NCBI GenBank assembly: GCA_020621965.1
Contig: JAHRYV010000007.1
Location: 37,718-88,095, forward strand
Direction: 5' to 3'
Origin: Curvibacter sp.
GTDB taxonomy: Bacteria; Pseudomonadota; Gammaproteobacteria; Burkholderiales; Burkholderiaceae_C
Length of the DNA stretch: 50,378 nt
Shown: one piece after another, positions 4,680 through 26,224 of the stretch
How positions within the stretch are numbered: the stretch's first letter is position 1
Layout of the letters: every line of letters begins with the position of its first letter
Made by a program: the position numbers and the translations under genes
Notes under the pieces: generated by a model
The model's database searches: none
What the model saw: the letters and a program-made list of their open reading frames with translations, nothing else
What the model was told of the DNA's origin: nothing

Positions 4680-6014
4680 TCAGACCACGCGCACCCGGCT
4701 GGCCGGGAACACCAGAGCAAAACGCGAGCCCTTGCCCAGCACGCTCTCGATCTTGAGCTCGGCGCCGTGGCGTTGCGCCACGTGCTTGACGATGGCCAGG
4801 CCCAGGCCGGTGCCCCCGGTGTCGCGCGAGCGGCTGCGGTCCACGCGGTAGAAGCGCTCGGTCAGGCGCGGGATGTGCTCCGGCGCAACGCCGGGCCCGC
4901 TGTCCTGCACAAAGAATTCGCCCCGGCCATCGGCATGCTGCAGCCAGCCGCAGCGCACCTCGCCGCCGGCCGGGGTGTAACGCACGGCGTTGCTGACCAG
5001 GTTGGACAGCGCGCTGTGCAGCTCGGAGGCGGTACCGGCCAGTTCGCAGCGCGGGGCCGGCTCGAACACCAGCTGCTGCGCCGGACCGGCCATGGGCGGA
5101 TTGAGCACGGCCGACAGCGCGCGCGCCTCCTGCTCCAACTGGCTCATCAGCATGGGCACTGAGGAGCACTCGGCCGCGCCGGGCAGCGGACTGCCCTCCA
5201 GGCGCGAGAGCATCAGCAGGTCGCTGACCAGCGACTGCATGCGGCTGGCCTGCTGCGCCATCAGGTCGAGGTAGCGGGCCCGCTCGCTGGCCTCCAGCGG
5301 CAGGGTCTGCAGCGTCTCGACAAAACCGGAGAGCACGGTCAGCGGCGTACGGATCTCGTGCGAGACATTGGCCACGAAGTCACGCCGCATGGCCTCGGCC
5401 TGCTCGAACATGGTGATGTCACGCGACAGCAGCAGGCGCCGGCCATCACCATAGGGATGCAGATGCACCGACAGCCGCACGGGGTGTGCGGTGCTGTGGC
5501 CTCGTCCCGGCATGGTGATACTGGTTCTGAAGTCGCCCGCGGCCACATAGGCGGCGAAACCCGGATCGCGTACCAGGTTCACCAGGTGCTGCAACTGGTC
5601 GCGCTCAGGGTCCAGACCGAAGTGGGTGGCGGCCATCTGGTTGAACCATTCGATGCGACCGCTGGCGTCGAGCAGCACCACGCCGTTGGGCGAGGCCTGC
5701 AGCGCGGCCAGAAAATCCTGCAGCCGGCGGTCGCTCTCGCGCGTGGCCTGCTCGCGCAGGCGCACCATGCGGCGCACCCGCTCGGCCACGACGCCCCACA
5801 GGCCCAGCTTGAGCGGCACGTCGGACACATCGTCCTGGCGCAGCCACTGCAGCACGCGCAGCCCGCGGGTGAAGTCGACCAGCACCCACAGCAGGCCGGC
5901 GGCCAGCATGCCGGCCAGGCCGCCGCGGATCTGCAGCTCCTGCGGCGTCAGCCAGATGCCGAGCAGACCGCCCAGTCCCTGGAGCAGCAGGAAGGAAATC
6001 AGGCGCAGCAACAT
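4680..6014 (-). CDS. phoR: Phosphate regulon sensor histidine kinase PhoR
   Basis: This 444-residue membrane sensor kinase phosphorylates PhoB when phosphate is scarce. Two hydrophobic segments cover about residues 1-50, a PAS domain lies near 100-200 (NGVVLLDASGRIEWFNQMA), and the H-box is VSHEIRTPL with the phospho-accepting His219. The N-box is NLVSNAVRYTP (Asn342), G1 is DSGPG at 371-375 and G2 is GGTGLGL at 400-406, so the kinase core is complete. As in E. coli PhoR, there is no large periplasmic domain, in keeping with sensing through PhoU and the Pst transporter. It lies 31 bases after phoB, at the 3' end of the pst-pho set. Confidence 0.96.
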   Translation of the reverse strand: MLLRLISFLLLQGLGGLLGIWLTPQELQIRGGLAGMLAAGLLWVLVDFTRGLRVLQWLRQDDVSDVPLKLGLWGVVAERVRRMVRLREQATRESDRRLQDFLAALQASPNGVVLLDASGRIEWFNQMAATHFGLDPERDQLQHLVNLVRDPGFAAYVAAGDFRTSITMPGRGHSTAHPVRLSVHLHPYGDGRRLLLSRDITMFEQAEAMRRDFVANVSHEIRTPLTVLSGFVETLQTLPLEASERARYLDLMAQQASRMQSLVSDLLMLSRLEGSPLPGAAECSSVPMLMSQLEQEARALSAVLNPPMAGPAQQLVFEPAPRCELAGTASELHSALSNLVSNAVRYTPAGGEVRCGWLQHADGRGEFFVQDSGPGVAPEHIPRLTERFYRVDRSRSRDTGGTGLGLAIVKHVAQRHGAELKIESVLGKGSRFALVFPASRVRVV

Positions 6015-6045
6015 GGACGAGACTATCCCGCGGTGTGGACGGGAC

Positions 6046-6759
6046 TCAGCCCCGCGCGGCGGGCACGCTGGTCATGGCTTGTGCGGAAAAGCGGTAACCG
6101 GCCCCGCGCACCGTCTCCACCATGGCGGCGGCCTCACCCAGCGCCTCGCGCAGGCGCTTGATGTGCACGTCGACCGTGCGCTCCTCGATGAACACGTGGT
6201 CACCCCAGACCTTGTCGAGCAGCTGGCCACGGCTGTGCACCCGCTCGGCATGGCCCATCAGGTACTGCAGCAGCTTGAACTCGGTGGGCCCGAGCTTGAG
6301 CGGCTGTTCGGCATAGGTCACGCGGTGAGTGGCGGTATCGAGCTTCAGAGCGCCGATCTCCAGGGCCACGGCGCCCTGCTCGGGCGCGCGCCGGCGCAGC
6401 ACGGCACGGATGCGCGCCAGCATCTCCTTGGTGGAAAAAGGCTTGGCCATGTAGTCGTCGGCACCGGCATCCAGGCCGGCCACGCGGTCGGTCTCGTCGC
6501 CGCGCGCCGTCAGCATGATGATGGGCACGGCCTTGGTCCGCGGGTCACTGCGCCAGCGGCGCGCCAGGCTCAGGCCGCTCTCGCCGGGCAGCATCCAGTC
6601 CAGCAATACCAGATCGGGCAGCACGGCGTCGATCTCGCGCTGCGCGGTGCTGCCGTCGGGCGCCACCGTGGGCTGGAAACCGTTGTGGCGCAGGTTGACG
6701 GCTATCAGCTCGGCGATGGCCGGCTCGTCCTCCACCACCAATACAGCAGGTTGCTTCAT
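6046..6759 (-). CDS. phoB: Phosphate regulon response regulator PhoB
   Basis: PhoB (237 residues) is the DNA-binding regulator that activates phosphate-starvation genes at tandem CTGTCAT-type repeats. The receiver domain shows Glu10-Asp11, the phospho-acceptor Asp54 in VLLDWMLPG, Thr84 and Lys106. The C-terminal half is an OmpR-type winged helix with LGPTEFKLLQYLM, RTVDVHIKRLREAL and GAGYRF. A GGAGG precedes the start. It is separated from phoU by 148 bases holding a repeat element but no evident PhoB site. Several PhoB-like sites elsewhere in this window are presumably its targets. Confidence 0.97.
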   Translation of the reverse strand: MKQPAVLVVEDEPAIAELIAVNLRHNGFQPTVAPDGSTAQREIDAVLPDLVLLDWMLPGESGLSLARRWRSDPRTKAVPIIMLTARGDETDRVAGLDAGADDYMAKPFSTKEMLARIRAVLRRRAPEQGAVALEIGALKLDTATHRVTYAEQPLKLGPTEFKLLQYLMGHAERVHSRGQLLDKVWGDHVFIEERTVDVHIKRLREALGEAAAMVETVRGAGYRFSAQAMTSVPAARG

Positions 6760-6810
6760 TTCTGTAAATCCTCCACTCCCGACATAACCGTGGCGGGTAA
6801 ATCATCCAGC

Positions 6811-6907
6811 CAAGGAACGCCGTGGAACCGGCTTTGCCGGGCCACTGGCGTTGCCCCCTTGAGGGGGGTGGCGCAGCGACACGCAGTGCGCATAGCCTGG
6901 GGGTGTT
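6811..6907. repeat. Hairpin-rich intergenic element between phoU and phoB
   Basis: Two stem-loops lie close together: CCGGC-TTT-GCCGG at 6828-6840, and a C-run/G-run pair (CCCCCT at 6854-6859, AGGGGG at 6862-6867). The sequence style (GGCTTTGCCGG, then GTTGCCCCC...GGGGG, then CACGCAGTGCG) resembles short elements I recall scattered between genes in Comamonadaceae, but I cannot verify copy number here. It may cut read-through from pst-phoU into phoB-phoR. The rest of the 148-base gap (6760-6810) shows only the phoB ribosome site. Confidence 0.5.
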
Positions 6908-7609
6908 TCACTTCAATACCGATTCAATCTCTTCGATGGAGGCGTGGCGCACGTCTGCCCCCTTGACGATGTAGATGATGAGTTCGGCGATGTTCTTGGC
7001 ATGGTCACCGACGCGTTCGATCGCCTTGGCCAGGAACAGCAGGTCCAGGCTGGTGGAGATGGTGCGCGGGTCCTCCATCATGTAGGTGATGAGCACACGC
7101 ACGAAGCTGTCGAACTCCTTGTCGATCAGATCGTCCTCGCGCAGGATGGCCACGGCCGTGGTCGTGTCCAGGCGCGCGAAGGCATCCAGCGCCTTGCGCA
7201 GCTGGCCCGAGGCCAGGTCGGCCGCGGTGCGCAGCTCGGACGCCGGCAGTGCCCGCGGCGCCCCGCTCTGGATGATGGAAAGCACCATGCGCGCCATCTT
7301 CTCGGCCTCGTCGCCAGCGCGCTCCAGATTGGCGGTGGCCTTGGAGACGGCGATGAGCAGGCGCAGGTCGCGCGCGGTGGGCTGACGACGGGCGATGATG
7401 GACGAGATTTCGTGGTCGAGCTCGATCTCCATCGTGTTCACACGACGCTCCAGCTCGATGACCCGGCGGGCCTCGTCGGCATTGAACTGGCTGAGCGCCT
7501 GCACGGCCTGCTGGACCTGGGCTTCGACCAGGCCGCCCATCTCCATGACGCGGCTGGAGACGGTGCTCAGTTCGCTGTCGAACTGGGTGGATAGGTGTTT
7601 TTCGGGCAT
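6908..7609 (-). CDS. phoU: Phosphate signalling protein PhoU
   Basis: This 233-residue all-helical cytoplasmic protein links the Pst transporter to PhoR and restrains Pho activation when phosphate is plentiful. It has the two repeated three-helix bundles of the family. The recurring acidic signatures are in the first repeat (ERRVNTMEIELDHE) and the second (DDLIDKEFDSFVRVL with KAIERVGDHAKNIAE). It starts 12 bases after pstB, so the two are one transcript. Confidence 0.96.
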   Translation of the reverse strand: MPEKHLSTQFDSELSTVSSRVMEMGGLVEAQVQQAVQALSQFNADEARRVIELERRVNTMEIELDHEISSIIARRQPTARDLRLLIAVSKATANLERAGDEAEKMARMVLSIIQSGAPRALPASELRTAADLASGQLRKALDAFARLDTTTAVAILREDDLIDKEFDSFVRVLITYMMEDPRTISTSLDLLFLAKAIERVGDHAKNIAELIIYIVKGADVRHASIEEIESVLK

Positions 7610-7621
7610 GTCGTTTCCTCC

Positions 7622-8401
7622 TTAACCGAAGCGGCCGGTAATGTAGTCCTCGGTCTCCTTGCGCGTGGGCTTGAAGAACATCTGCTCGGTCGAGCCGAAT
7701 TCCACCAGATCACCGAGGTACATGTAGGCGGTGTAGTCGCTGCAACGCGCCGCCTGCTGCATGTTGTGCGTCACGATGACCACCGTGTAGTCGTCCTTGA
7801 GCTCGACGATGAGCTCCTCGATCTTGCCGGTGGAGATCGGGTCCAGCGCCGAGCAGGGTTCGTCCAGCAGGATGACCTCGGGCTTGATGGCGATGCCGCG
7901 CGCGATGCACAGGCGCTGCTGCTGGCCGCCCGACAGGCTGGAGCCGCTCTGCTTGAGCTTGTCCTTGACCTCGTTCCAGAGGGCCGCCTTGCGCAGCGCC
8001 CATTCGACCCGCTCCTCCAGATCGGTGGTGCTGAGCGATTCGAACAGCTTGATGCCGAAGGCGATGTTGTCGAAGATGGACATCGGGAACGGCGTCGGTT
8101 TCTGGAACACCATGCCGACCTTGGCGCGCAGCAGGGCCACGTCTTCCTTGCTGGTCAGCAGGTTCTCGCCGTCGAGCAGCACCTGACCTTCGGCGCGCTG
8201 GTCCGGATACAGCTCGTACATGCGGTTGAACACGCGCAGCAGCGTGGACTTGCCGCAGCCCGAGGGGCCGATGAAGGCGGTGACCTTGTTCTGCGGAATG
8301 TCCAGGTTGATGCCCTTGAGGGCGTGGAACTTGCCGTAGTAGAAATTCAGGTCGCGCACCGAGAGCTTGGGAGCGGGAGCCGGAGCGGAAGAGTTTTCCA
8401 T
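7622..8401 (-). CDS. pstB: Phosphate ABC transporter ATP-binding protein PstB
   Basis: PstB (259 residues) is the ATPase of the high-affinity phosphate importer, working with PstA and PstC. Walker A is GPSGCGKST, the ABC signature is LSGGQQQR and Walker B is [13 protein letters not shown] with a following switch histidine (VIVTHNM). I start at the ATG giving MENSS. The frame remains open further upstream, but that part overlaps pstA and reads as non-coding in style. It lies 50 bases after pstA. Confidence 0.97.
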
Positions 8402-8451
8402 GGTGGTCTTTGCAGAGTATTCGCTGGCGTACACGACGTCGGTCCCGGGCC

Positions 8452-9309
8452 TCAGCCCTTGTTGCGCGTCAGCACGCGCGCGATGATGTTGAGCCCGAGC
8501 ACGGTGACGGTGATCAGCAGCACGCCGGCCCAGGCCAGCTGCTGCCAGTTCTCGTACGGGCTCATGGCGAACTTGAAGATGGTGACCGGCAGGCTGGCCA
8601 TCGGGTCCCCGAGGTTCGAGGTCCAGAACTGGTTGTTCAGCGCCGTGAACAGCAGCGGCGCGGTTTCGCCCGAGATGCGCGCCACGGCCAGCAAAACGCC
8701 GGTGACCACGCCAGCGCGCGCCGCGCGCAGGGTGATCAGCAGGATCACCTTCCACTTGGGCGTGCCCAGCGCGTAGGCCGCCTCGCGCATGGCGGCGGGC
8801 ACCAGCTGCAGCATGTTTTCCGTGGTGCGGATCACCACCGGGATCACGATCAGCGCCAGCGCCATGACACCGGCCCAGCCGGAGAAGGACTTGAAGCGCG
8901 CGACCACCACCGCATAGACGAACAGGCCGATCACGATGGAGGGCGCCGACAGCAGGATGTCGTTGACGAAACGCGTCACCTCGGCCAGCCAGCCCCGGGT
9001 GTCGTACTCGGCGAGGTAGATGCCGGCCATGATGCCGATGGGTGTGCCCACGAAGGTCGCCAGCAGCACCATCAGGAAGGAGCCGTAGATGGCGTTGGCG
9101 ATGCCGCCGGCCTCGTTGGGCGGCGGCGTCATCTGGGTCAGCGTGGCCCAGGCCAGACCGCCGATGCCCAGCATCAGCGTCTCCCAGAGGATCCAGAACA
9201 GCCAGAACAGGCCGAAGGACATGGCGAACACCGAAAGCGCCAGGGCGATGAAGTTGATGCGCTTGCGCCGGCCGAAGGCGGCGCGGCGGATATCGTCCTG
9301 CTGGCTCAT
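8452..9309 (-). CDS. pstA: Phosphate ABC transporter permease PstA
   Basis: PstA (285 residues) is one of the two membrane channels of the Pst importer. Six hydrophobic segments are visible. The cytoplasmic coupling loop carries the EAA-type motif ([24 protein letters not shown]), which docks on PstB. Its ATG overlaps the pstC stop as ATGA, which fixes the start and implies translational coupling. Confidence 0.96.
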
Positions 9310-10271
9310 GATTTGGCGCCCTCGTTCTTTTTGAGTTGCTGCAGCAGCAGCTTGGACAGGGCCAGCACCACGAAGGTGATGAAAAACAGCACCAGGCCCA
9401 GGTAGATCAGCGAGGCCTGGTGGATGCCAGCACCGGCCTCGGCGAATTCGTTGGCCAGGGCCGAGGTGATGCTGTTGGCGGCGTCGAACAGGCTGAGCGT
9501 GTCGAGCTGGTTCATGTTGCCGATGACGAAGGTGACGGCCATGGTCTCGCCCAAGGCGCGGCCCAGGCCCAGCATGATGCCGCCGATGACGCCGGTCTTG
9601 GTATAAGGCAGCACCACCTTGGAGACCACCTCCCAGGTGGTGGAGCCCAGGCCGTAGGCCGACTCCTTGAGCAGGGGCGGCGTGACCTCGAACACATCGC
9701 GCATGACGGAGGCGATGAAGGGGATGATCATGATGGCCAGGATGATGCCGGCCGACAGGATGCCGATACCCACCGGCGGCCCCGACACCAGGGCCCCCAG
9801 GTAGGGAATGCCGCTGAACAGCGATTGCAGCGGCGTCTGCACGTACTGGGCCAGGATGGGGCCGAACACCAGCAGGCCCCACATGCCGTAGACGATGGAG
9901 GGCACGGCCGCCAGCAGTTCGATGGCGGTACCCAGCGGGCGCTTGAGCCAGGCCGGGCACATTTCCGTGAGAAAGAGCGCGATGCCGAAACTCACCGGCA
10001 CCGCGATCAGCAAGGCAATGGTGGAGGTGGCCAGCGTGCCGTAGATCATGACCAGGCCGCCGAAATTCTCCTGCACCGGATCCCACACCGCATTGGTGAG
10101 GAAACCGAAGCCGTAGCGCTCGATGGCCGGCCAGGCGCCGACCACGAGCGAGGCGATGATGCTGGCCAGCAGCGCCAGAGTCACCCAGGCCGCCCCTTGG
10201 GCAAGCCAGCCGAACAGGGCGTCGACCCAGGGGCCGGAGCGGGATACGTTGACTGGGACAGGTGAACTCAT
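9306..10271 (-). CDS. pstC: Phosphate ABC transporter permease PstC
   Basis: PstC (321 residues) pairs with PstA. Six membrane segments follow a short N-terminal tail. The coupling loop is [22 protein letters not shown], and [18 protein letters not shown] is the conserved stretch near the channel exit. It overlaps pstA by four bases and begins 27 bases after pstS. Confidence 0.96.
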
Positions 10272-10298
10272 GGGCGGGCGCTGGTCGGGCTGGCTGGC

Positions 10299-11342
<1,044 letters not shown>

Positions 11343-11393
11343 CAAAAGCTCCTTAAGAGTTGGTTGGAGATGGGCAAACTTTAAGAAGCTTTT

Positions 11394-14406: not shown

Positions 14407-16278
14407 TCACGCCAGCGCCAGGGCGCGCGCGGGCAGGACGTAAAGCCCCTCCCCGGCCATCTTGGCCTCGCGCTTGGCCAGCGCGGCCTGGGTCGCCACG
14501 TCTTCGGCCTCGCAGCAGGCTGCGCGGCCCACCTCTACCGCGCCGATCGACACCGTGGTGCAGGGAAAGAAGCGCATGACGCCATGCCTGTCCTCGGCAT
14601 GGATGCCGCCGGCCTGCCGCGCCGGCGCGTCATACAGCTCGGCGGCCTGGGTGGCGAACTCGCCGATGATGCGCTCACAGCGCGCCCGCCAGTCGCTGCT
14701 CTGGAACAGGATCAGGAAATCGTCGCCGCCCACATGACCCACGAAGTCACGCTGCGGGTCGCTGTGCGCCACGGTCAGGCGCGCCAGCAGGCGGATCATC
14801 TCGTCGCCGTGCCAGTAGCCGTAGTGGTCGTTGAAGGGCTTGAAGCTGTTCATGTCGATGTAGCAGGCCACGAACTCGCCCTGGCTCTGCAGCAGGCGCT
14901 TGAGGTGCAGGCTGATCGGTATGTTGCCCGGCAGGAAGGTCAGCGGGTTGGCGTGGCGCGCCGCTTCCAGGCGCAGCTCGGTCACCGAGCGCACCAGCTG
15001 CTCGCCGGTGCCCAGGCCGACATAACGCCCGCTCTCGATGACGATGAAGCCGTCGCTGAGGTAGCGCTGGTCCTGCGAGGTCAGGATGCCGATCAGCTCG
15101 TCGATGTCGTGGTTGCGCTCGATCAGCCGCGGCTCCATGTTAGCATGCAGCAGGCAGGACTTCTTGCCGAAGATTTCCCTGAAATACAGGGTCGCGTAAT
15201 GGTCCATGAACTGCTGGCGGTTGATGATGGCCACGGGCCGCAACTCGTCGGCGACCGCCAGCGCGTGCAGTTCGGGCCGCGCGAGAAAGATGGTCGCCAC
15301 GTCGTCGTTGCTCGCGGCGGGCGCCACGGCCGGGGCATGGATCAACGACAGGTGTCGCAGCTGCCCCATGCGGGCCATGTGGCGCTGCTCGGGCATGACC
15401 GCCACCCGCGAGTCGCGCAGGACCGCGGCAGCCTCGGCGGCGACTTCGGCCTGCACCGGCGCGCCCGGGCAGCCGAGAAAGTAACCCTGCCCGTAGCTGA
15501 TGCCCAGATCGCGGATGACACGCAGATCCGCCTCGTTCTCGATACCCTCGGCCACCAGCGAGGTCCCGAAGACATCGGCAATCTGCAGCAGCGCCTGCAG
15601 GGTTTTGAGCTTGTCGGCGCTGCTGCTGATGTCGCCGCTGAAGTACTTGTCGATCTTGACGATGTCGGGCCGGATCTGCGACCACAGCCGCAGGCTGGAG
15701 CGCCCGTCACCGAAATCGTCGAGCGCCAGCGACAGGCCCACGGCATGCAGCGCCCGGGCCACCTCGACCAGCGCCTCCATGTCGTGCACCCGCTCGTGTT
15801 CGGTGATCTCCAGCACCACCAGCCGTGGCGGCACGTCCAGACCGCGCATGGCCCGCGCCAGGGCGTCCGTCCCACCCACGGCCACCAGGCGCTCCAGCGC
15901 GTGCGCACTGATGTTGAGAAACAGGCGCCCGGGCTGTCGTCGCTGCCCCCACTCGCGCAGCGCGAGGTAGACACAGTACAACTCGAATTCGTACAGCAGG
16001 CCCTCGGCCTGCGCGGCCCGCAGCAGCGTCTCGGCCGACTGCAGGGGCCCGTCATGCGGCCCGCGGATCAGGGCCTCATGCGCGTGGACGGTGGCGTCCT
16101 TGAGATCGACGATGGGCTGGAACACGGGATACAGCACATCCTGGCGCATCAGGCGCACCAAGGGTCCGTCGCGCCCGTTCAAGGCGGCCCATAACTCGGC
16201 GGTGAAAAGGCGGACATGGTCGATCATCACTTGCAGGGCGAACACTTGCTCCAGGCCCGCCGGCAGGACATGCGGCAT
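14407..16278 (-). CDS. EAL-CBS-GGDEF protein, probable c-di-GMP phosphodiesterase
   Basis: This 623-residue cytoplasmic protein has an EAL domain (about residues 45-290), a CBS pair (about 300-440) and a GGDEF domain (about 465-615). The EAL domain keeps the metal and catalytic residues: EAL at 68-70, N122, EITE at 157-160, DDFG at 187-190, K208, EGIE at 244-247 and QG at 264-265. It should therefore be able to cleave c-di-GMP. The GGDEF site reads GGDDF at 517-521, with Asp in place of the catalytic Glu, so cyclase activity is doubtful and it may only bind GTP. The CBS pair could sense adenine nucleotides. No clear ribosome site marks the ATG; an alternative ATG lies at 16227. Nothing links it directly to phosphate except position. 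Confidence 0.9.
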   Translation of the reverse strand: MPHVLPAGLEQVFALQVMIDHVRLFTAELWAALNGRDGPLVRLMRQDVLYPVFQPIVDLKDATVHAHEALIRGPHDGPLQSAETLLRAAQAEGLLYEFELYCVYLALREWGQRRQPGRLFLNISAHALERLVAVGGTDALARAMRGLDVPPRLVVLEITEHERVHDMEALVEVARALHAVGLSLALDDFGDGRSSLRLWSQIRPDIVKIDKYFSGDISSSADKLKTLQALLQIADVFGTSLVAEGIENEADLRVIRDLGISYGQGYFLGCPGAPVQAEVAAEAAAVLRDSRVAVMPEQRHMARMGQLRHLSLIHAPAVAPAASNDDVATIFLARPELHALAVADELRPVAIINRQQFMDHYATLYFREIFGKKSCLLHANMEPRLIERNHDIDELIGILTSQDQRYLSDGFIVIESGRYVGLGTGEQLVRSVTELRLEAARHANPLTFLPGNIPISLHLKRLLQSQGEFVACYIDMNSFKPFNDHYGYWHGDEMIRLLARLTVAHSDPQRDFVGHVGGDDFLILFQSSDWRARCERIIGEFATQAAELYDAPARQAGGIHAEDRHGVMRFFPCTTVSIGAVEVGRAACCEAEDVATQAALAKREAKMAGEGLYVLPARALALA

Positions 16279-16325: not shown

Positions 16326-16365
16326 GATGGCAGTTGCGTGACGGCTGGATGGCAGTTGCGTGACG
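16326..16365. repeat. Two 18-bp direct repeats, 22 bp apart
   Basis: GATGGCAGTTGCGTGACG occurs twice without mismatch, at 16326-16343 and 16348-16365. The 22-base period places both on the same DNA face. They lie between the divergent EAL gene and the small RHH-like gene, as expected for a tandem regulator-binding site. Confidence 0.8.
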
Positions 16366-16405
16366 ACGCCATGACGCGTGCCGCGCTGCGCCATTGCCCG
16401 CGATC

Positions 16406-19452: not shown

Positions 19453-19493
19453 ATGACTTGATGATGACGGATTGTTTACAGTTTTGATGACAG
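19453..19493 (-). promoter_or_regulatory. PhoB-site array upstream of ppk
   Basis: Reading on the minus strand: a perfect CTGTCAT (19487-19493), then CTGTAAA (19475-19481), CCGTCAT (19464-19470) and AAGTCAT (19453-19459). The last three are exactly 11 bases apart; the first is 12 bases from the second. Matches to CTGTCAT are 7, 5, 6 and 5 of 7. The first two overlap the stop region of the upstream glycosyltransferase gene. TGATAG just downstream could be a -10, giving a very short leader. Confidence 0.75.
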
Positions 19494-20564
19494 AGATGTG
19501 ACGGTTTCGTGCAAGCGCTCCCCGGCCGCCTCCCGGGCCGGCCGGGCGGGGACCAACTGCGCCAGGAACTGCCGGCTGGCCTGTTCCCAGCTGAAGGCCA
19601 TCGCCCGTTGCCGGGCCGCCTCGCGCGGGACCGCCTGGGCACGATACCACGCCTGTTGCAGATCAGCGTCGAGCGCCCCGCCCTGCACCCGGCCCTCGTG
19701 CTGGCCCAGCACTTCCAGCGGACCGTCGACCGGATAGGCCGCCACCGGCGTGCCACAGGCCATGGCCTCCAGCATGACCAGGCCGAAGGTCTCGGCGCGG
19801 CTGGGCATGACAAACACGTCCGCCGCCGCGTAGACCTTGGCCAGCTCCGCGCGCGGCAGGATGCCCAGCCAGTGCACCCGCGGATAACGCTCCTTGAGCG
19901 CAGCCTCCAGCGGGCCGACGCCGCAGACGATCTTGCTGCCCGGCGCATCGAGCTGCAGGAAGGCCTCAATGTTCTTCTCGTAGGAAATGCGGCCGACGAA
20001 CAGCGACACCGGCCGCGCCAGCCGGCCCAGCGGCGCGTACGGCCGGACCTCGTCCTGGTGGGGGAACAGTCCCAGATCGACCCCGTGTGTCCAGGGTTTC
20101 AGGTTGCGAAAGCCGCGCTGCTGCAGCAGGCGCAGCACACCCTGGGTCGGCACCAGCACACCCGAGGAGGGGCGGTGGAAATGGCGGAACAGGGCGTAAC
20201 CCCAGGAGAGCGGGACGTGCAGCGCGGCCTGCAGGATTTCCGGAAACCGGGTGTGGAAGGCCGTGGTGAAGGCCAGGCCGCGCTTGAGGCAGTAGGCCCG
20301 CGCGGCCCAGCCCAGCGGCCCTTCGGTGGCGATGTGGATGGCCTGGGGTGCCAGCGCATCGAGCCGCTGCGCCAGCACCTTGCGCGGGCGCACCGCCAGG
20401 TCGATGCCGGCATAACCGGGGCAGGGGCGCGTGCGGAACTGGCCGGGATGGATGACCTCGACCTCGTGTCCCGCGGCGCGCACCTCGCGCACCAGTTCGA
20501 CCAGCGTGGTGACCACGCCGTTGACCTGGGGCTCCCAGGCATCGGTGACGAGTGCGATCTTCAT
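19476..20564 (-). CDS. GT4 glycosyltransferase, Agt-like (diacylglycerol glycolipid synthesis)
   Basis: This 362-residue family-4 retaining glycosyltransferase has the N-terminal donor/acceptor loop ALVTDAWEPQVNGVVTTL, the acceptor-side AFHTRFPEI, and SRAETFGLVMLEAMACGTPV containing the EX7E sugar-nucleotide motif. In rhizobia, marine roseobacters and SAR11, an Agt enzyme of this family sits beside plcP and adds sugar to diacylglycerol under phosphate limitation. The same pairing here, with ATGA overlap to the plcP-like gene, supports that role (inference). Its sequence also resembles GT4 mannosyl- and glucosyltransferases, so the sugar is not defined. Confidence 0.75.
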   Translation of the reverse strand: MKIALVTDAWEPQVNGVVTTLVELVREVRAAGHEVEVIHPGQFRTRPCPGYAGIDLAVRPRKVLAQRLDALAPQAIHIATEGPLGWAARAYCLKRGLAFTTAFHTRFPEILQAALHVPLSWGYALFRHFHRPSSGVLVPTQGVLRLLQQRGFRNLKPWTHGVDLGLFPHQDEVRPYAPLGRLARPVSLFVGRISYEKNIEAFLQLDAPGSKIVCGVGPLEAALKERYPRVHWLGILPRAELAKVYAAADVFVMPSRAETFGLVMLEAMACGTPVAAYPVDGPLEVLGQHEGRVQGGALDADLQQAWYRAQAVPREAARQRAMAFSWEQASRQFLAQLVPARPAREAAGERLHETVTSLSSKL

Positions 20565-21421
20565 GCCGACACCGCCTGCAGTGCTGCCCGCCGCGCCGGG
20601 CCGGAGGTCGACGCGCCCCAGTGCAGGAGTTCCAGCCGCCCATCGTGATGCTCCACCAGCGCGGTGCGGCTCTCGACCCAGTCGCCGTCGTTGCAGTAGA
20701 GGATGCCCTCGATCTCGCGCATCTCGGCCCGGTGGATGTGCCCGCAGACCACGCCCTGGTGACCGCGGCGGCGTGCCTCGTGGGCGACGGCGACTTCGAA
20801 GTCGCTGATGAAGTTGACCGCCTTCTTGACCTTGTGCTTGAGGTAGGCCGAGAGCGACCAGTAGGGCAATCCGAACCTCGCGCGCAAGTGGTTCAGGTAG
20901 CGGTTGAGCTTGAGCGTGAACTCGTACAGGTTGTCGCCCACGTAGGCGAGCCACTTGGCGCACTGGATCACGCCGTCGAAGTAGTCGCCGTGCGTGACCC
21001 ACAGGCGCCGGCCGTCGGCCGTCACGTGCACGGCCTCGTCCACCACCTCGATGCCGCCGAACTGGTGGCCGATGAAACCGCGCGCGAACTCGTCGTGGTT
21101 GCCCGGCACGAAGACCACGCGTGTGCCCTTGCGCGCACCGCGCAGCAGCTTCTGCACCACGTCGTTGTGCGCCTGCGGCCAGTACCAGCGCCGGCGCAGC
21201 TGCCAGCCGTCGATGATGTCGCCCACCAGGTAGAGGTGGTCGCAAGGACTGGCCTTGAGGAAGGACAGCAGCTGTGTGGCCTGGCAGCCGGGTGTGCCCA
21301 GATGCAGGTCGGAGATGAAGACGGCACGGTAGCGGTGGGTAGCGACCGCCTCATCGTCGTGGTGCTCGTGCGACATGCTCTGGCCCAGCCAGGAGGCGGC
21401 CTGGTCGGCGGGCGTCTTCAT
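20561..21421 (-). CDS. plcP: PlcP-like metallophosphoesterase (phospholipase C for lipid remodelling)
   Basis: This 286-residue calcineurin-fold phosphoesterase has the metal-binding series DLHLG, VGDIIDGW, PGNHDEF, THGDYFD and GHIH. It belongs to the group often labelled UDP-2,3-diacylglucosamine diphosphatase-like (LpxH-like). The long WYWPQAHNDVVQKLLRGARK and LPYWSLSAYLKHKVKKAVNF segments are those I associate with PlcP. That enzyme in Sinorhizobium splits phospholipids to diacylglycerol when phosphate is limiting. Neighbours olsB and a GT4 glycosyltransferase fit that use. It overlaps olsB by one base (TGATG) and the glycosyltransferase by four (ATGA). A lipid A role (LpxH) is the alternative, but it lies outside the lpx cluster. 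Confidence 0.8.
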   Translation of the reverse strand: MKTPADQAASWLGQSMSHEHHDDEAVATHRYRAVFISDLHLGTPGCQATQLLSFLKASPCDHLYLVGDIIDGWQLRRRWYWPQAHNDVVQKLLRGARKGTRVVFVPGNHDEFARGFIGHQFGGIEVVDEAVHVTADGRRLWVTHGDYFDGVIQCAKWLAYVGDNLYEFTLKLNRYLNHLRARFGLPYWSLSAYLKHKVKKAVNFISDFEVAVAHEARRRGHQGVVCGHIHRAEMREIEGILYCNDGDWVESRTALVEHHDGRLELLHWGASTSGPARRAALQAVSA

Positions 21422-22245
21422 CAGGCCCCGAGGAAATGCTTGCGGTAACGCGCCGGCAGGTCCTCGATGCGCATCAGCATGGGCAGGTCGGCGCTGTTGA
21501 AGTCCGGATCCCAGGCCGGCGCACCCAGCACCTTGGCGCCCAGGCGCAGATAACCCTTGATCAGCGCCGGCGGCTCCACGTCCAGGCTGCTGTCGAGCTC
21601 GTCCACCGGCAGCGCCAGGCGCGGCCAGACCTGGTGCTCGATGGGTGCCAGATGCGTCTCGCGCACCTGGCGCCAGATGCTGGCTGCCACATCGCCGCTG
21701 ACCACACCGTTGTGCAGCATGGGAATGCTGGCGCAGCCGATCATGGTGTCGAGTTTGTTGCGCACCATGAACTCGGCCAGGGCGCCCCACAGCGCCATGA
21801 TGACGCCGCCGTGGCGATGGTCCGGGTGCACGCAGCTGCGGCCCAGCTCGACCATGCGCTCACGCAGGCCGCGCAGACGGGTGAGGTCGAACTCCAGATC
21901 GCTGTAGGTGCTGCCCACGCGCTGTGCCTGCTCAGGTGTCAGCACGCGATAGGTGCCGATGACCTGCTGCGTGTCCTGGTCGCGCACCAGCAGATGCTCG
22001 CAGTAGTCGTCGAACAGGTCGACGTCGTGGCCCGGCACCGTGGTGGCCAGGCGCGCGCCCATCTCGCCGGCGAAGATGTCGTGCCTCAGGCGCTGGGCGG
22101 CGCGGACTTCGTCGTGGTGGCGCGCCCACGAAACCTCAATGCCGCCGCGCGCCGGCGCAGGGAGCGGCTGATCCGCTCGGTGAAGCGACCCCCGGGGCAG
22201 CGATACGGGTGACAGCGGGAAGGTCGGGTTGGGCAGTTCTTTCAT
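21421..22245 (-). CDS. olsB: Ornithine N-alpha-acyltransferase OlsB-like (GNAT fold)
   Basis: This 274-residue protein is of the putative-hemolysin/OlsB type. OlsB transfers a 3-hydroxyacyl chain from acyl carrier protein to ornithine, the first step to phosphorus-free ornithine lipids. Characteristic segments are RLRHDIFAGEMGA, VDLFDDYCEHLLV, VIGTYRVL and MVELGRSCVHPDHR, followed by LMRIEDLPARYRKHFLG at the C-terminus. An AAGGAG six bases before ATG fixes the start. It leads a tightly overlapping trio with plcP and agt. The partner O-acyltransferase OlsA is not in this window. Confidence 0.82.
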   Translation of the reverse strand: MKELPNPTFPLSPVSLPRGSLHRADQPLPAPARGGIEVSWARHHDEVRAAQRLRHDIFAGEMGARLATTVPGHDVDLFDDYCEHLLVRDQDTQQVIGTYRVLTPEQAQRVGSTYSDLEFDLTRLRGLRERMVELGRSCVHPDHRHGGVIMALWGALAEFMVRNKLDTMIGCASIPMLHNGVVSGDVAASIWRQVRETHLAPIEHQVWPRLALPVDELDSSLDVEPPALIKGYLRLGAKVLGAPAWDPDFNSADLPMLMRIEDLPARYRKHFLGA

Positions 22246-22282
22246 TTTGTACTCCTTGTTATCGGTTCATCGAATTCGGTTT

Positions 22283-22310
22283 AAAAAAAAGGCCCCGACG
22301 CAGCGGGGCC
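22283..22310 (-). terminator. Intrinsic terminator between the 170-aa gene and olsB
   Basis: On the minus strand a perfect 7-bp stem, GGCCCCG-CTGCGT-CGGGGCC (22310-22291), is followed by eight T. It sits 10 bases after the stop of the 170-aa gene and about 38 bases before olsB. It therefore separates the PhoB-array promoter from the lipid operon unless there is read-through or anti-termination. Confidence 0.85.
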
Positions 22311-22320
22311 CTACTTCCAC

Positions 22321-22833
22321 TCATGTGAGGACAGCGCCTCCATCCTTGCGTCGCTCCACCACGGCGCAAGTCCCCCCTTCGCGCAGCGCGTTGAAGAACA
22401 CATAACGACGGTCGGGTGTCGCCGCCGTGCTGGCGCGCGGCGCGGGGGCGGCGCCAGGCCGCGCCAGCAGCTGGTTCCCCAGCAGCCGGGCCCGGCGCGG
22501 GTCCGGCATCACCAGCCATCGGCCCTGCCGCTCCAGAATCTCGACGGCGTCCAGAAAGTCCGGCCGGCCGGCTGGAAACAGCCCCAGCACCCCATGACGC
22601 GGATTGCCGTCCAGCGGCAGAAAGACCATTCCGGCCACGGATACACCGGCAGGAATGCGCCAGCGGTAGAGGATCGGCGCACCGACCGGGTGACCGCCGC
22701 TGCCCTGGGACGGCCGCCCCTCGGCATCACGCAGCCGGCCCTCATATCCCGGAGCCGCCAACGACCCCGGCCCGGCGAGGCCGGGCGCAAGGCATGGGAG
22801 GGACCTGGGGGCTTGCATGGTGTGTGACAGCAT
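22321..22833 (-). CDS. Unknown 170-aa protein under a PhoB-site array
   Basis: I do not recognise this protein. It is coding in style (strong G/C at third positions, from about codon 50 on). The N-terminal 45 residues are rich in Pro, Gly and Ala. A more structured part (LYRWRIPAGVSVAGMVFLPL, then LDAVEILERQGRWLVMPDPRR) and RYVFFNALREGGTCAVVERRKDG at the end follow. No membrane segment or clear signal peptide is visible. ATG candidates lie at 22866, 22833 and 22818 with no strong ribosome site. I choose 22833 because the PhoB array ends 32 bases upstream of it. A terminator follows the stop. Confidence 0.55.
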   Translation of the reverse strand: MLSHTMQAPRSLPCLAPGLAGPGSLAAPGYEGRLRDAEGRPSQGSGGHPVGAPILYRWRIPAGVSVAGMVFLPLDGNPRHGVLGLFPAGRPDFLDAVEILERQGRWLVMPDPRRARLLGNQLLARPGAAPAPRASTAATPDRRYVFFNALREGGTCAVVERRKDGGAVLT

Positions 22834-22864
22834 CTTGTTGATGCCGTCAGTGTGCGGGCCCTGC

Positions 22865-22904
22865 ATGACGGCTTTATGGCGGCGGCATGACAAAACAATG
22901 ACAT
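22865..22904 (-). promoter_or_regulatory. Four tandem PhoB heptamers at exact 11-bp spacing
   Basis: On the minus strand: ATGTCAT (22898-22904), TTGTCAT (22887-22893), CCGCCAT (22876-22882) and CCGTCAT (22865-22871). Matches to CTGTCAT are 6, 6, 5 and 6 of 7, each separated by four bases. This is the best PhoB-type array in the window and points at the 170-aa gene. A -10 is not obvious; CACACT, 10 bases downstream, is a weak candidate. Confidence 0.75.
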
Positions 22905-22935
22905 GGGGCCTGGCGTCAGGCCGTGGTTCCAAATA

Positions 22936-22959
22936 TTCAATATTTCAAGTATCATTGAA
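22936..22959. promoter_or_regulatory. Candidate ArsR operator
   Basis: TTCAAT (22936-22941) and ATTGAA (22954-22959) form a 6-bp inverted repeat with a 12-base gap in an AT-rich stretch just before arsR. It overlaps a TATCAT -10 candidate at 22950-22955. That -10 would place the transcript start near the ATG itself, so a leaderless message is possible. ArsR proteins usually repress their own operon from such sites. Confidence 0.5.
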
Positions 22960-22961
22960 GC

Positions 22962-23315
22962 ATGAAGAAGCAGAAATACGCTGAGTCGGATGCCGTGCGC
23001 TCCCTGGCCGCGCTGGCTCAGCCCCAGCGCCTGCGCGCCTTTCGCGCCCTGGTGGCCGCCGGCCCCGAGGGAATGACACCGGGCGTGCTGGCGGTGGCGC
23101 TGGATATCAGCCCCAGCGCCCTGTCCTTCCATCTCAAGGAGCTGGTGCATGCCGGACTCGCGTACAGCGAACCCGATGGCCGGCACCTGGTCTATCGCGC
23201 CGACTTCACCCGCATGGATGGCTTGCTGGCTTATCTGACCGAGCATTGCTGCCAGGGCGCGGCCTGCGAGGTCAAACCGCGCCGCAGCAAGGCCGCCGAC
23301 TGCGTCAACTGCTGA
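22962..23315 (+). CDS. arsR: ArsR-family arsenite-responsive repressor
   Basis: This 117-residue winged-helix repressor has the recognition region MTPGVLAVALDISPSALSFHLKELVHAGL. It lacks the ELCVCDL arsenite site of E. coli ArsR. It instead has Cys96-Cys97-Cys102 near the C-terminus plus Cys114 and Cys117, matching the C-terminal triple-cysteine arrangement known from Acidithiobacillus ferrooxidans ArsR. It heads arsR-arsC-acr3 and probably represses them until arsenite binds. Confidence 0.9.
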   Translation: MKKQKYAESDAVRSLAALAQPQRLRAFRALVAAGPEGMTPGVLAVALDISPSALSFHLKELVHAGLAYSEPDGRHLVYRADFTRMDGLLAYLTEHCCQGAACEVKPRRSKAADCVNC

Positions 23316-23355
23316 ACCGCCTGCCGCCCAGTCCCGCCATTTTTCTGGAACCGAC

Positions 23356-23862
23356 ATGAACCACAAGACCCCCCTGAACGTCCTCTTCCTCTGCACGCAC
23401 AACTCGGCACGCAGCATCCTGGCCGAGGCCACGCTGAACCACATCGGCGGCGGCCGCTTCAAGGCCTATTCGGCCGGCAGCAGCCCGCGCGAGAACCAGC
23501 AGCCCAATCCGCTGGGCCTGCGGGCGCTGCAAGCCGCCGGCATCTCGACCGACGGTCTCTACAGCAAGAGCTGGGACGCGTTCGCCGGCGCCGACGCCCC
23601 GCAGATGGACCTGATCATCACGGTCTGCGACAACGCGGCCGGCGAGGTCTGCCCCGTCTGGCCCGGCCACCCCGCCACGGCCCACTGGGGTTATGCCGAC
23701 CCGTCCGAAGTGCAGGGAACGGAAGAGCAGCGGATGGACGCTTTCCGCCAGACCTTGCAGGCAATCAAGCGCCGCCTGGACCTGCTGGTCAACCTGCCGC
23801 CGCAGAAGCTGGCCAGCCAGCTGATCCAGACCACGGCCCGCAACCTCGCCAAGGAAGCCTGA
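23356..23862 (+). CDS. arsC: Arsenate reductase, low-molecular-weight phosphatase type
   Basis: This 168-residue enzyme reduces arsenate to arsenite. The phosphate-binding loop CTHNSARS (Cys13 to Arg19) has the CX5R pattern. The redox pair lies in VCDNAAGEVCP, typical of the LMW-phosphatase ArsC group. WPGHPATAHWGYADPS is the conserved acid-loop stretch. It sits 40 bases after arsR and one base before the exporter gene. Confidence 0.93.
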   Translation: MNHKTPLNVLFLCTHNSARSILAEATLNHIGGGRFKAYSAGSSPRENQQPNPLGLRALQAAGISTDGLYSKSWDAFAGADAPQMDLIITVCDNAAGEVCPVWPGHPATAHWGYADPSEVQGTEEQRMDAFRQTLQAIKRRLDLLVNLPPQKLASQLIQTTARNLAKEA

Positions 23863-24958: not shown

Positions 24959-26224
24959 ATGCACACACCGCCCGCCCCCCTGAGCACGGCCGAGCTCCTG
25001 AACCAGGCCTGCTATTGCCGCTCGCTCGACACCCAGCGCCTGCGCCAGGAACTCGACGCCGGCACCGGCATGCCCGGGCTGGCGGCCAGCCTCGAACAGA
25101 CCCGGCCCCACCTGTTCGCCTCGACCGCGGTGTTCCTGGCGCGCCCGACCTACCAGGCCATTGCCGACTCGATCGCCGCCATCGAGGACGTCGTGGCACG
25201 GCCCGCCTACCGCGCCCTAGCGCTGGCACGCGCCCCCGCCATCGCGCAGCGCGCGCCGGGGGCGGCCAGTGTTTTCATGGGTTATGACTTTCATCTCGGC
25301 CAGAGCGGTCCGCAGCTCATCGAGATCAACACCAATGCCGGCGGCGCCTTGCTCAACACCGCGTTGGCGCGCGCGCAATTCACCTGCTGCGACGTGATGC
25401 CGGCGGTCTTTCGCCCCGATGCGCTGGAGCAGGTCTTCATCGACATGTTCACCAGCGAGTGGCGCGCACAGCGCGGCGACGCGCCCATGGGGCGGGTGCT
25501 GATCGTGGACGATGCGCCCGACCAGCAATACCTGGCGCCGGAGTTCGCCCTGTTCGAGCGCATGTTCCAGCGCTTCGGCATCAGCGCCGGCATCGCCGAC
25601 GCCCGGCAGCTCGAATGGCGCGACGGCAGGCTCTGGCACGAGGGCGCCGCAGTCGACCTGGTCTACAACCGCCTGACCGATTTCTACCTGGCCGAGCCGC
25701 AGCACCAGGCCCTGCGCCAGGCCTATGAAGCCGATGCGGTGGTGCTGACGCCGCACCCGCAGGCCCATGCCCTGTACGCCGACAAGCGCAACCTGGTCAC
25801 GCTCAGCGACGAGACCTTGCTGGAGGGCTGGGGTGTATCGCCGCAGGCGCGCGCCACGCTGCGCGCCACGGTTCCGCGCACCCGGCTGGTCAGTCCGCAG
25901 CAGGCCGCCGCCTTGTGGGAACAGCGGCGCCAGCTCTTCTTCAAGCCGGTCGCAGGTTATGCCAGCAAGGCGGCCTACCGCGGGGAGAAGCTGACGCGCC
26001 GGGTCTGGGACGAGATCCTGGCGGGCGACTTCGTGGCCCAGGAACTGGTCCCGCCCAGCGAACGGGCCATCAAGGTCGACGGGGTCGCGACAGAGCTGAA
26101 GTTCGATCTGCGTGCCTATGTCTATGCGGGGCGCATCCAGTTGCTGGCCGCACGCATGTACCAGGGGCAGACCACCAACTTCCGCACCCCCGGGGGCGGT
26201 TTCGCCCCCGTGCTGGTGGTCTGA
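24959..26224 (+). CDS. ATP-grasp-fold protein at the end of the arsenic operon
   Basis: This 421-residue soluble protein is of unknown substrate. It shows ATP-grasp features: FMGYDFHLGQSGPQLIEINTN (residues ~103-123), FFKPVAGYASKAAYRG with the ATP-contacting lysine (~327), FVAQELVPPSER, ELKFDLRAYVY with metal-binding acids (~380), and a terminal NFRTPGGGF with the metal-binding Asn. Such enzymes join a carboxylate to an amine or thiol using ATP. It begins 21 bases after acr3 on the same strand, so it is probably in the ars transcript. Whether it acts in arsenic chemistry, for example making a thiol or peptide conjugate, is speculation. Confidence 0.7.
   Translation: MHTPPAPLSTAELLNQACYCRSLDTQRLRQELDAGTGMPGLAASLEQTRPHLFASTAVFLARPTYQAIADSIAAIEDVVARPAYRALALARAPAIAQRAPGAASVFMGYDFHLGQSGPQLIEINTNAGGALLNTALARAQFTCCDVMPAVFRPDALEQVFIDMFTSEWRAQRGDAPMGRVLIVDDAPDQQYLAPEFALFERMFQRFGISAGIADARQLEWRDGRLWHEGAAVDLVYNRLTDFYLAEPQHQALRQAYEADAVVLTPHPQAHALYADKRNLVTLSDETLLEGWGVSPQARATLRATVPRTRLVSPQQAAALWEQRRQLFFKPVAGYASKAAYRGEKLTRRVWDEILAGDFVAQELVPPSERAIKVDGVATELKFDLRAYVYAGRIQLLAARMYQGQTTNFRTPGGGFAPVLVV

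Follow-up and report, generated by a model that had tools for sequence, protein, structure and literature searches.

A short PhoX-derived protein under putative Pho-type control at the head of a probable lipid-remodelling operon in a Curvibacter/Hylemonella-like genus

Among the bacterial enzymes that scavenge organic phosphorus, PhoX is a major one. D292 and R385 are given as active-site residues of the enzyme in passages of one published source (PMC11098088). Clusters in which plcP is accompanied by agt and Pho boxes are described in a second (PMC4796936), and a third deals with propeller fragments, in which engineered two-bladed WD40 pieces form tetramers and two-blade tachylectin pieces form pentamers (PMC6805158). 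Among the open-licence papers listed for these subjects, we found no description of a PhoX-derived mini protein, or of an operon, such as the one reported here.

The locus lies in a stretch of 50,378 nucleotides from Curvibacter sp., the whole of which is referred to below as the window, and its product is referred to as mini-PhoX. With PhoX (PF05787; Pseudomonas fluorescens, PDB 3zwu) it shares an almost certain descent, a Pho-type promoter, the site that PhoX occupies in relatives and strand segments from the N- and C-terminal parts of the chain. Unlike PhoX, it is a quarter of the length, lacks the leader region, the middle of the propeller and all of the putative Fe, Ca and phosphate positions that were checked, and is invisible to the Pfam model. 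As in Pho-regulated lipid-remodelling clusters (olsB; plcP-agt), an array precedes olsB, a PlcP-like phosphoesterase and a GT4 glycosyltransferase, whereas the arrangement here differs from those clusters in its first gene, PhoX or mini-PhoX, which a conserved terminator separates from the rest. Mini-PhoX would also resemble self-assembling propeller fragments in holding roughly two blades, by our own assignment, although mini-PhoX is natural and its oligomer hypothetical.

The reading frame occupies 22321..22833 on the minus strand and encodes 170 amino acids from the ATG at 22833. The second ATG, at 22818, is probably the true start and would give 165 amino acids; it is preferred because the resulting MQAPRSLP resembles the N-terminal MQERSLP of the relatives. 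Across the ten genomes that carry it the mini form spans 165-170 residues, and the nine relatives, at 166 residues each from the starts chosen, align with one another without a gap. An intrinsic terminator lies between mini-PhoX and olsB (22283..22312, minus strand), with a nine-pair stem at 22312-22289 and a run of eight T at 22290-22283, two T of which the scan counted into the stem; the closing terminator that the original prediction had named is therefore present. A stem and T run are found at this place in all 15 loci in which olsB comes after PhoX, the mini form or a 34-residue remnant.

Taken alone, the window protein matched no family in Pfam, NCBIfam or PHROGs, and it had been described as a protein that could not be placed. 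The lack of a family match is explained by the related genomes. Sixteen of 199 related genomes matched the window protein. In ten of these, all of the same genus and with the window's own included, the homologue lies in an open frame of 173-207 codons. The remaining six (G002, G004, G024 and G025 of the genus, and G027 and G072 of the family) matched over parts of a longer protein, whose frame has 641-671 codons, or 413 in G072, where the contig ends inside PhoX. The long protein of G004 is PhoX by its match to PF05787 (E 1.3e-175) and to P. fluorescens PhoX, 3zwu (E 1.4e-187).

The relationship of the mini form to PhoX rests on short blocks, a lineage motif and synteny, because family-level searches miss it: none of the ten minis matched the Pfam PhoX model (PF05787) or any other Pfam family at E up to 1, and a ten-sequence profile searched against the PDB did not recover 3zwu at E up to 10, its sole match being an unrelated chain (E 1.9). 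Profile-profile comparison of the mini form with PhoX gave E 4.3e-7 (probability 92.7) over a single N-terminal block of 61 columns. In identity, each of the ten minis is closer to the five PhoX proteins at this site than to any PhoX paralog among nine from the genus, by a margin that is sometimes small. A one-residue insertion producing the motif GNPRHG occurs in 10/10 minis and 6/6 PhoX proteins of the lineage (the five at the site and that of G072, whose site is unseen) and in 0/9 paralogs. Among 55 invariant mini columns, 39 match at least four of the five site PhoX proteins and 23 match at least seven of the nine paralogs. The C-terminal match comes from the multiple alignment and one weak tblastn piece (E 8.5e-4), and the first ~50 residues have no clear counterpart in PhoX. 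Taken together, the profile-profile match, the identity ranking, GNPRHG and the synteny make descent of the mini frame from the PhoX at this site close to certain in our judgement, and the product can now be placed.

A different affiliation was also considered. Searched as a single sequence with phmmer, the window protein hit RES-type toxin chains at E 0.0012 and 0.0021; the match was gone with the ten-sequence profile, and similarity to RES domains was found neither in Pfam at E up to 1 nor in the PDB profile search. That the frame encodes an unrelated orphan or a RES-type toxin is next to inconceivable.

The relatives show what else can occupy this position. The 26 genomes of the genus comprise ten with the mini form, one with a remnant (G023), four with PhoX at the site, three with olsB directly behind the array and eight without an olsB match; the site itself was compared in 18 of the 26, those eight being left out. 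A full 638-residue PhoX stands at exactly this site in 4/26 (G002, G004, G024 and G025), in the order divergent arsR, Pho array, PhoX, terminator, olsB, PlcP-like gene, glycosyltransferase and ppk. The arsR neighbour is common to the mini, remnant and PhoX loci of the genus; in G027, of another genus, PhoX, terminator and olsB follow one another, and an arsR match is absent from the 13 kb compared. OlsB is encoded directly after the mini form in nine of ten genomes, and in the tenth, G006, the contig ends past the terminator and a fragmentary OlsB lies on a separate contig. Eight named records, all falling among the same ten genomes, have the mini form: Curvibacter sp. PAE-UM, Curvibacter sp. 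UBA7973, two Hylemonella MAGs and four Burkholderiales/Burkholderiaceae MAGs. Outside the genus, no mini form was found among 199 relatives, 399 family genomes and 399 order genomes, samples that overlap, cover their groups incompletely and, in the family and order scans, were scored on at most nine initial candidates per genome. The six out-of-genus matches among the 399 family genomes covered short stretches of frames with 641-663 codons, or with 354 (G392) and 413 (G072).

Measured against the 638-residue PhoX of G004, 472 residues are absent from at least eight of the ten minis, the large segments being 28, 24, 21, 359 and 27 residues long. The positions checked as putative metal or active-site residues (3zwu numbering) were D292, R385, C179, which we take to be such a position, and E90, E194, E273 and E387, which were selected as conserved acidic residues; all seven lie in deleted segments. 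Mini-PhoX has a PhoX ancestry and a Pho-type promoter, as a minimal phosphatase that is still active might, yet the loss of all seven positions makes that reading barely credible, and with the putative catalytic positions gone PhoX-type catalysis cannot be its function. By its sequence, mini-PhoX appears to be a PhoX-derived pseudoenzyme. PhoX residues 21-48, which carry RR and a hydrophobic stretch (19-residue mean 1.54), are likewise missing from at least eight of ten minis; the highest 19-residue hydropathy mean in the minis is 0.95-1.22, and no Tat export leader was recognised in them by inspection and hydropathy.

What is retained are the ends of the PhoX chain, namely the strand preceding blade 1, both blade-1 hairpins and the final strand segments. 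In a propeller these ends would meet, if our assignment of the blades is right, and the blade-1 hairpins, GNPRHG and ERQGxW, are among the best-kept parts of the minis. AlphaFold models of two members, both of low depth (nine sequences), show a four-strand meander and a helix with an N-terminus of low confidence; blocks reach pLDDT 75-92 over residues 51-150 of the window protein and 73-83 over residues 51-120 of the second member, whose model is weaker (pLDDT 58.7). Foldseek searches of the two models against the PDB gave no match under E 0.001 (best E 0.048 and 0.11); 3zwu ranked 15th for the first (E 0.43, TM 0.26) and was absent from the best 50 matches of the second. It is conceivable that, of a six-bladed propeller, mini-PhoX has kept the first blade and the last (Velcro) one and reassembles as a cytosolic homo-oligomeric ring. 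We consider this decidedly unlikely, and the 3zwu results leave the two-blade idea without support from the monomer models. If true, it would be a natural case in which internal deletion has made, out of a propeller enzyme, a self-assembling binder that serves a Pho-controlled change of membrane lipids.

The original prediction depended on homologues with a conserved frame in related genomes. These exist, and the frame is open in all ten, without a stop or frameshift; nine of the ten proteins have 166 residues. Pairwise omega was 0.15-0.52 in 45/45 pairs, and maximum likelihood gave 0.155 overall (window protein with its nine relatives), 0.091 for the core and 0.311 for the N-terminus. An omega of 1 was rejected (2dlnL 371.6), the omega-1 fits having been made at three set kappa values without optimising kappa. 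Among five frame controls, the forward shifts gave omega 1.4 and 3.6 and the reverse frames 1.4, 0.258 and 4.3; the low value belongs to the reverse frame with shift 1 and is probably an effect of shared third positions. OlsB, for comparison, has omega 0.047 in nine of the same genomes. Mini-PhoX is under purifying selection and is not decaying.

This bears on the idea of a pseudogene, in which PhoX became redundant given other copies and its remnant is disappearing. Elsewhere in the genome, PhoX is indeed matched strongly in six of the ten mini carriers and weakly in a seventh, and G023 has lost still more of the gene. The intact frames, the likelihood difference and the higher omega of the shifted forward frames nevertheless speak against decay, as do three of the ten carriers that have no PhoX match elsewhere, one of them in a genome that is 98% complete. 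The omega test largely refutes this reading, which we regard as very improbable.

The remnant of G023 is a 34-residue in-frame piece at the same site (locus L086, 6102-6206, minus strand), which retains the array, the start, the final 15 codons, the stop and the terminator. In an unrooted OlsB protein tree of 18 loci (G006, with its fragment, left out), the mini and remnant genomes stand apart from the rest with 95% support, and G023 groups with four mini genomes at 91%; the other inner nodes are weak (40-64%). A nucleotide tree of olsB and downstream DNA was set aside as distorted, since its 2-kb stretches probably reach different genes. On the groupings of the OlsB tree, the simplest order of change would be from PhoX to the mini form to the remnant. 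Nested with the mini clade and left with the remnant only, G023 also indicates that the mini protein is dispensable there.

Such a remnant is what would be expected if the locus were a translated leader only, in which the cell needs the Pho promoter and an unbroken frame before olsB, to keep Rho-dependent polarity away and to govern how far the terminator is read through, and does not need the protein. The conservation of array and terminator across the examined loci fits this as well. Against it stand the omega values of the core and of the whole frame, the gapless alignment of nine of ten minis and the 55 invariant columns; given this amino-acid conservation, we hold a mere leader to be unlikely. 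Since the G023 remnant keeps promoter, frame and terminator, a role as leader in addition to that of the protein is favoured.

The promoter region itself bears out the array that had been predicted. Four heptamers on the minus strand, ATGTCAT, TTGTCAT, CCGCCAT and CCGTCAT, run from 22904 down to 22865 (22865..22904) in steps of exactly 11 bp and match CTGTCAT at 6, 6, 5 and 6 of 7 positions. Their sum of 23/28 is the top four-heptamer score of the window on either strand, against a maximum of 20/28 in 40 simulated first-order Markov windows of equal length. The array scores 20-23/28 in 10/10 genomes with the mini form, where an ACACT box resembling a -10 element follows at the same offset. In the window this box is CACACT (22849..22854, minus strand), 10 nt past the array; ACACT keeps a constant offset from the array in 18/18 loci of the genus and in 0/2 outside it (G027 and G072), and is a putative -10 box. 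No sigma-70 consensus promoter was found within 21500-23600. Putative Pho-type control of the mini-PhoX frame, as originally proposed, is therefore well supported by an array conserved at promoter position among relatives and by the ACACT offset. The gap from array to ATG is 31 nt in the window (46 nt to the second ATG) and 23 nt in nine of ten minis, versus 47-48 nt in the four site PhoX genes of the genus; this spacing suggests that the 5' leader is very short or absent in nine of the ten minis.

Other Pho-related features were seen in the window. A phosphate-regulation cluster, phoR, phoB, phoU, pstB, pstA, pstC and pstS in a row, lies at 4680-11345 (minus strand). The second-best array (16327-16377, minus strand) has five heptamers, the best four scoring 21/28, and precedes a frame at 14407-16278 whose product matches models of EAL-type c-di-GMP phosphodiesterases below their cut-offs; phosphate starvation may lower c-di-GMP here. 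Pho-like heptamers at 19475-19515 (minus strand) score 17/28, in the range of chance, and lie just before the likely start of a polyphosphate kinase (~19387, placed from the PPK match within its open frame).

Downstream of the terminator, the lipid-remodelling genes that had been noted as neighbours are supported by family matches. An OlsB-like ornithine N-acyltransferase of the GNAT type (21421..22245, minus strand) matches PF13444 (2e-34) and, below cut-off, the NCBIfam OlsB model (4e-45). It is followed on the same strand by a calcineurin-like phosphoesterase (20561..21790; PF12850, 1.9e-11; LpxH-type models below cut-off), presumably PlcP by context, and by a GT4 glycosyltransferase (19476..21245; PF00534, 9.7e-21), possibly a glycolipid synthase of the Agt type, whose best NCBIfam match, below cut-off, is N-acetylglucosaminyl phosphatidylglycerol synthase. 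The coordinates of these last two are longest open frames, and the true starts are probably further in.

The original prediction had regarded mini-PhoX as a self-contained transcription unit, which now seems unlikely. The olsB ATG follows the T run by 31-44 nt in 15/15 loci (37 nt in the window), and within up to 600 nt before olsB in these loci the best internal Pho array scores 13-15/28, under the random-window maxima. In G003, G008 and G011, whose site has neither PhoX nor the mini form, an array of 19-21/28 with ACACT at the same offset stands directly before olsB. The short gap, the lack of a second array and the latter arrangement point to olsB, the PlcP-like gene and the glycosyltransferase probably being read through from the mini-PhoX promoter. 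The terminator looks strong, and read-through is assumed here. In both layouts the remodelling genes appear to be transcribed from a single Pho promoter, by way of a terminator where PhoX or the mini form intervenes.

On the other side of the array lies the divergent arsR (22962..23315, plus strand), by family models the first gene of an arsenic resistance cluster with arsC and acr3. Between array and arsR, at 22936-22959, is an imperfect inverted repeat, TTCAATATTTCAAGTATCATTGAA, with similar sequence seen by eye in relatives; it is probably the ArsR operator, which would bring arsenic and phosphate control together in one intergenic region. Past acr3 in the window is a 421-residue frame (24959-26224, plus strand) without a good family match, whose relatives in five other genomes (L066, L068, L069, L070 and L086) are placed between arsR and arsC.

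The explanation that we favour, and hold to be probable, is that mini-PhoX heads a lipid-remodelling operon as a PhoX-derived binding protein that is cytosolic, is induced through the Pho system and has no catalytic activity. First, phoX would have headed a Pho-controlled phoX-olsB-plcP-glycosyltransferase unit and lost ~470 of its 638 codons through several deletions that kept the frame, probably in an ancestor shared by one clade within this Curvibacter/Hylemonella-like genus. Second, PhoB would induce mini-PhoX in phosphate starvation, and some transcripts would continue past the terminator to take in olsB and the rest of the operon. Finally, the product would remain in the cytosol, because the leader has been lost, and could act as a small non-catalytic binder through the blade-1 hairpins; as its partner, an enzyme of the co-transcribed pathway for lipid remodelling, or one of the lipids concerned, is likeliest.

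A binder of PhoX descent could also be a regulator or chaperone of a full-length PhoX paralog, and the strong PhoX match elsewhere in six of ten carriers would suit such a role. However, no PhoX match was seen elsewhere in G005, G009 or G016 (G005 is 80% and G016 88% complete), that of G006 is weak, and PhoX has an export leader, the region that the minis have lost. We give this reading a very slim chance; the four genomes make it less likely than a binder of enzymes of the same unit, and mini-PhoX is most plausibly a binding or adaptor protein for these.

In summary, a PhoX gene in this genus appears to have been turned into a short, selected and apparently non-catalytic protein while keeping its promoter. 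The genus offers a natural series at one site, of 638, 166 and 34 codons and none, which could show what an enzyme stripped of its active site keeps, be it a protein or no more than a leader for the operon. The terminator inside the Pho operon suggests, in addition, that the amount of the first product relative to the enzymes of lipid remodelling may be set at this point.
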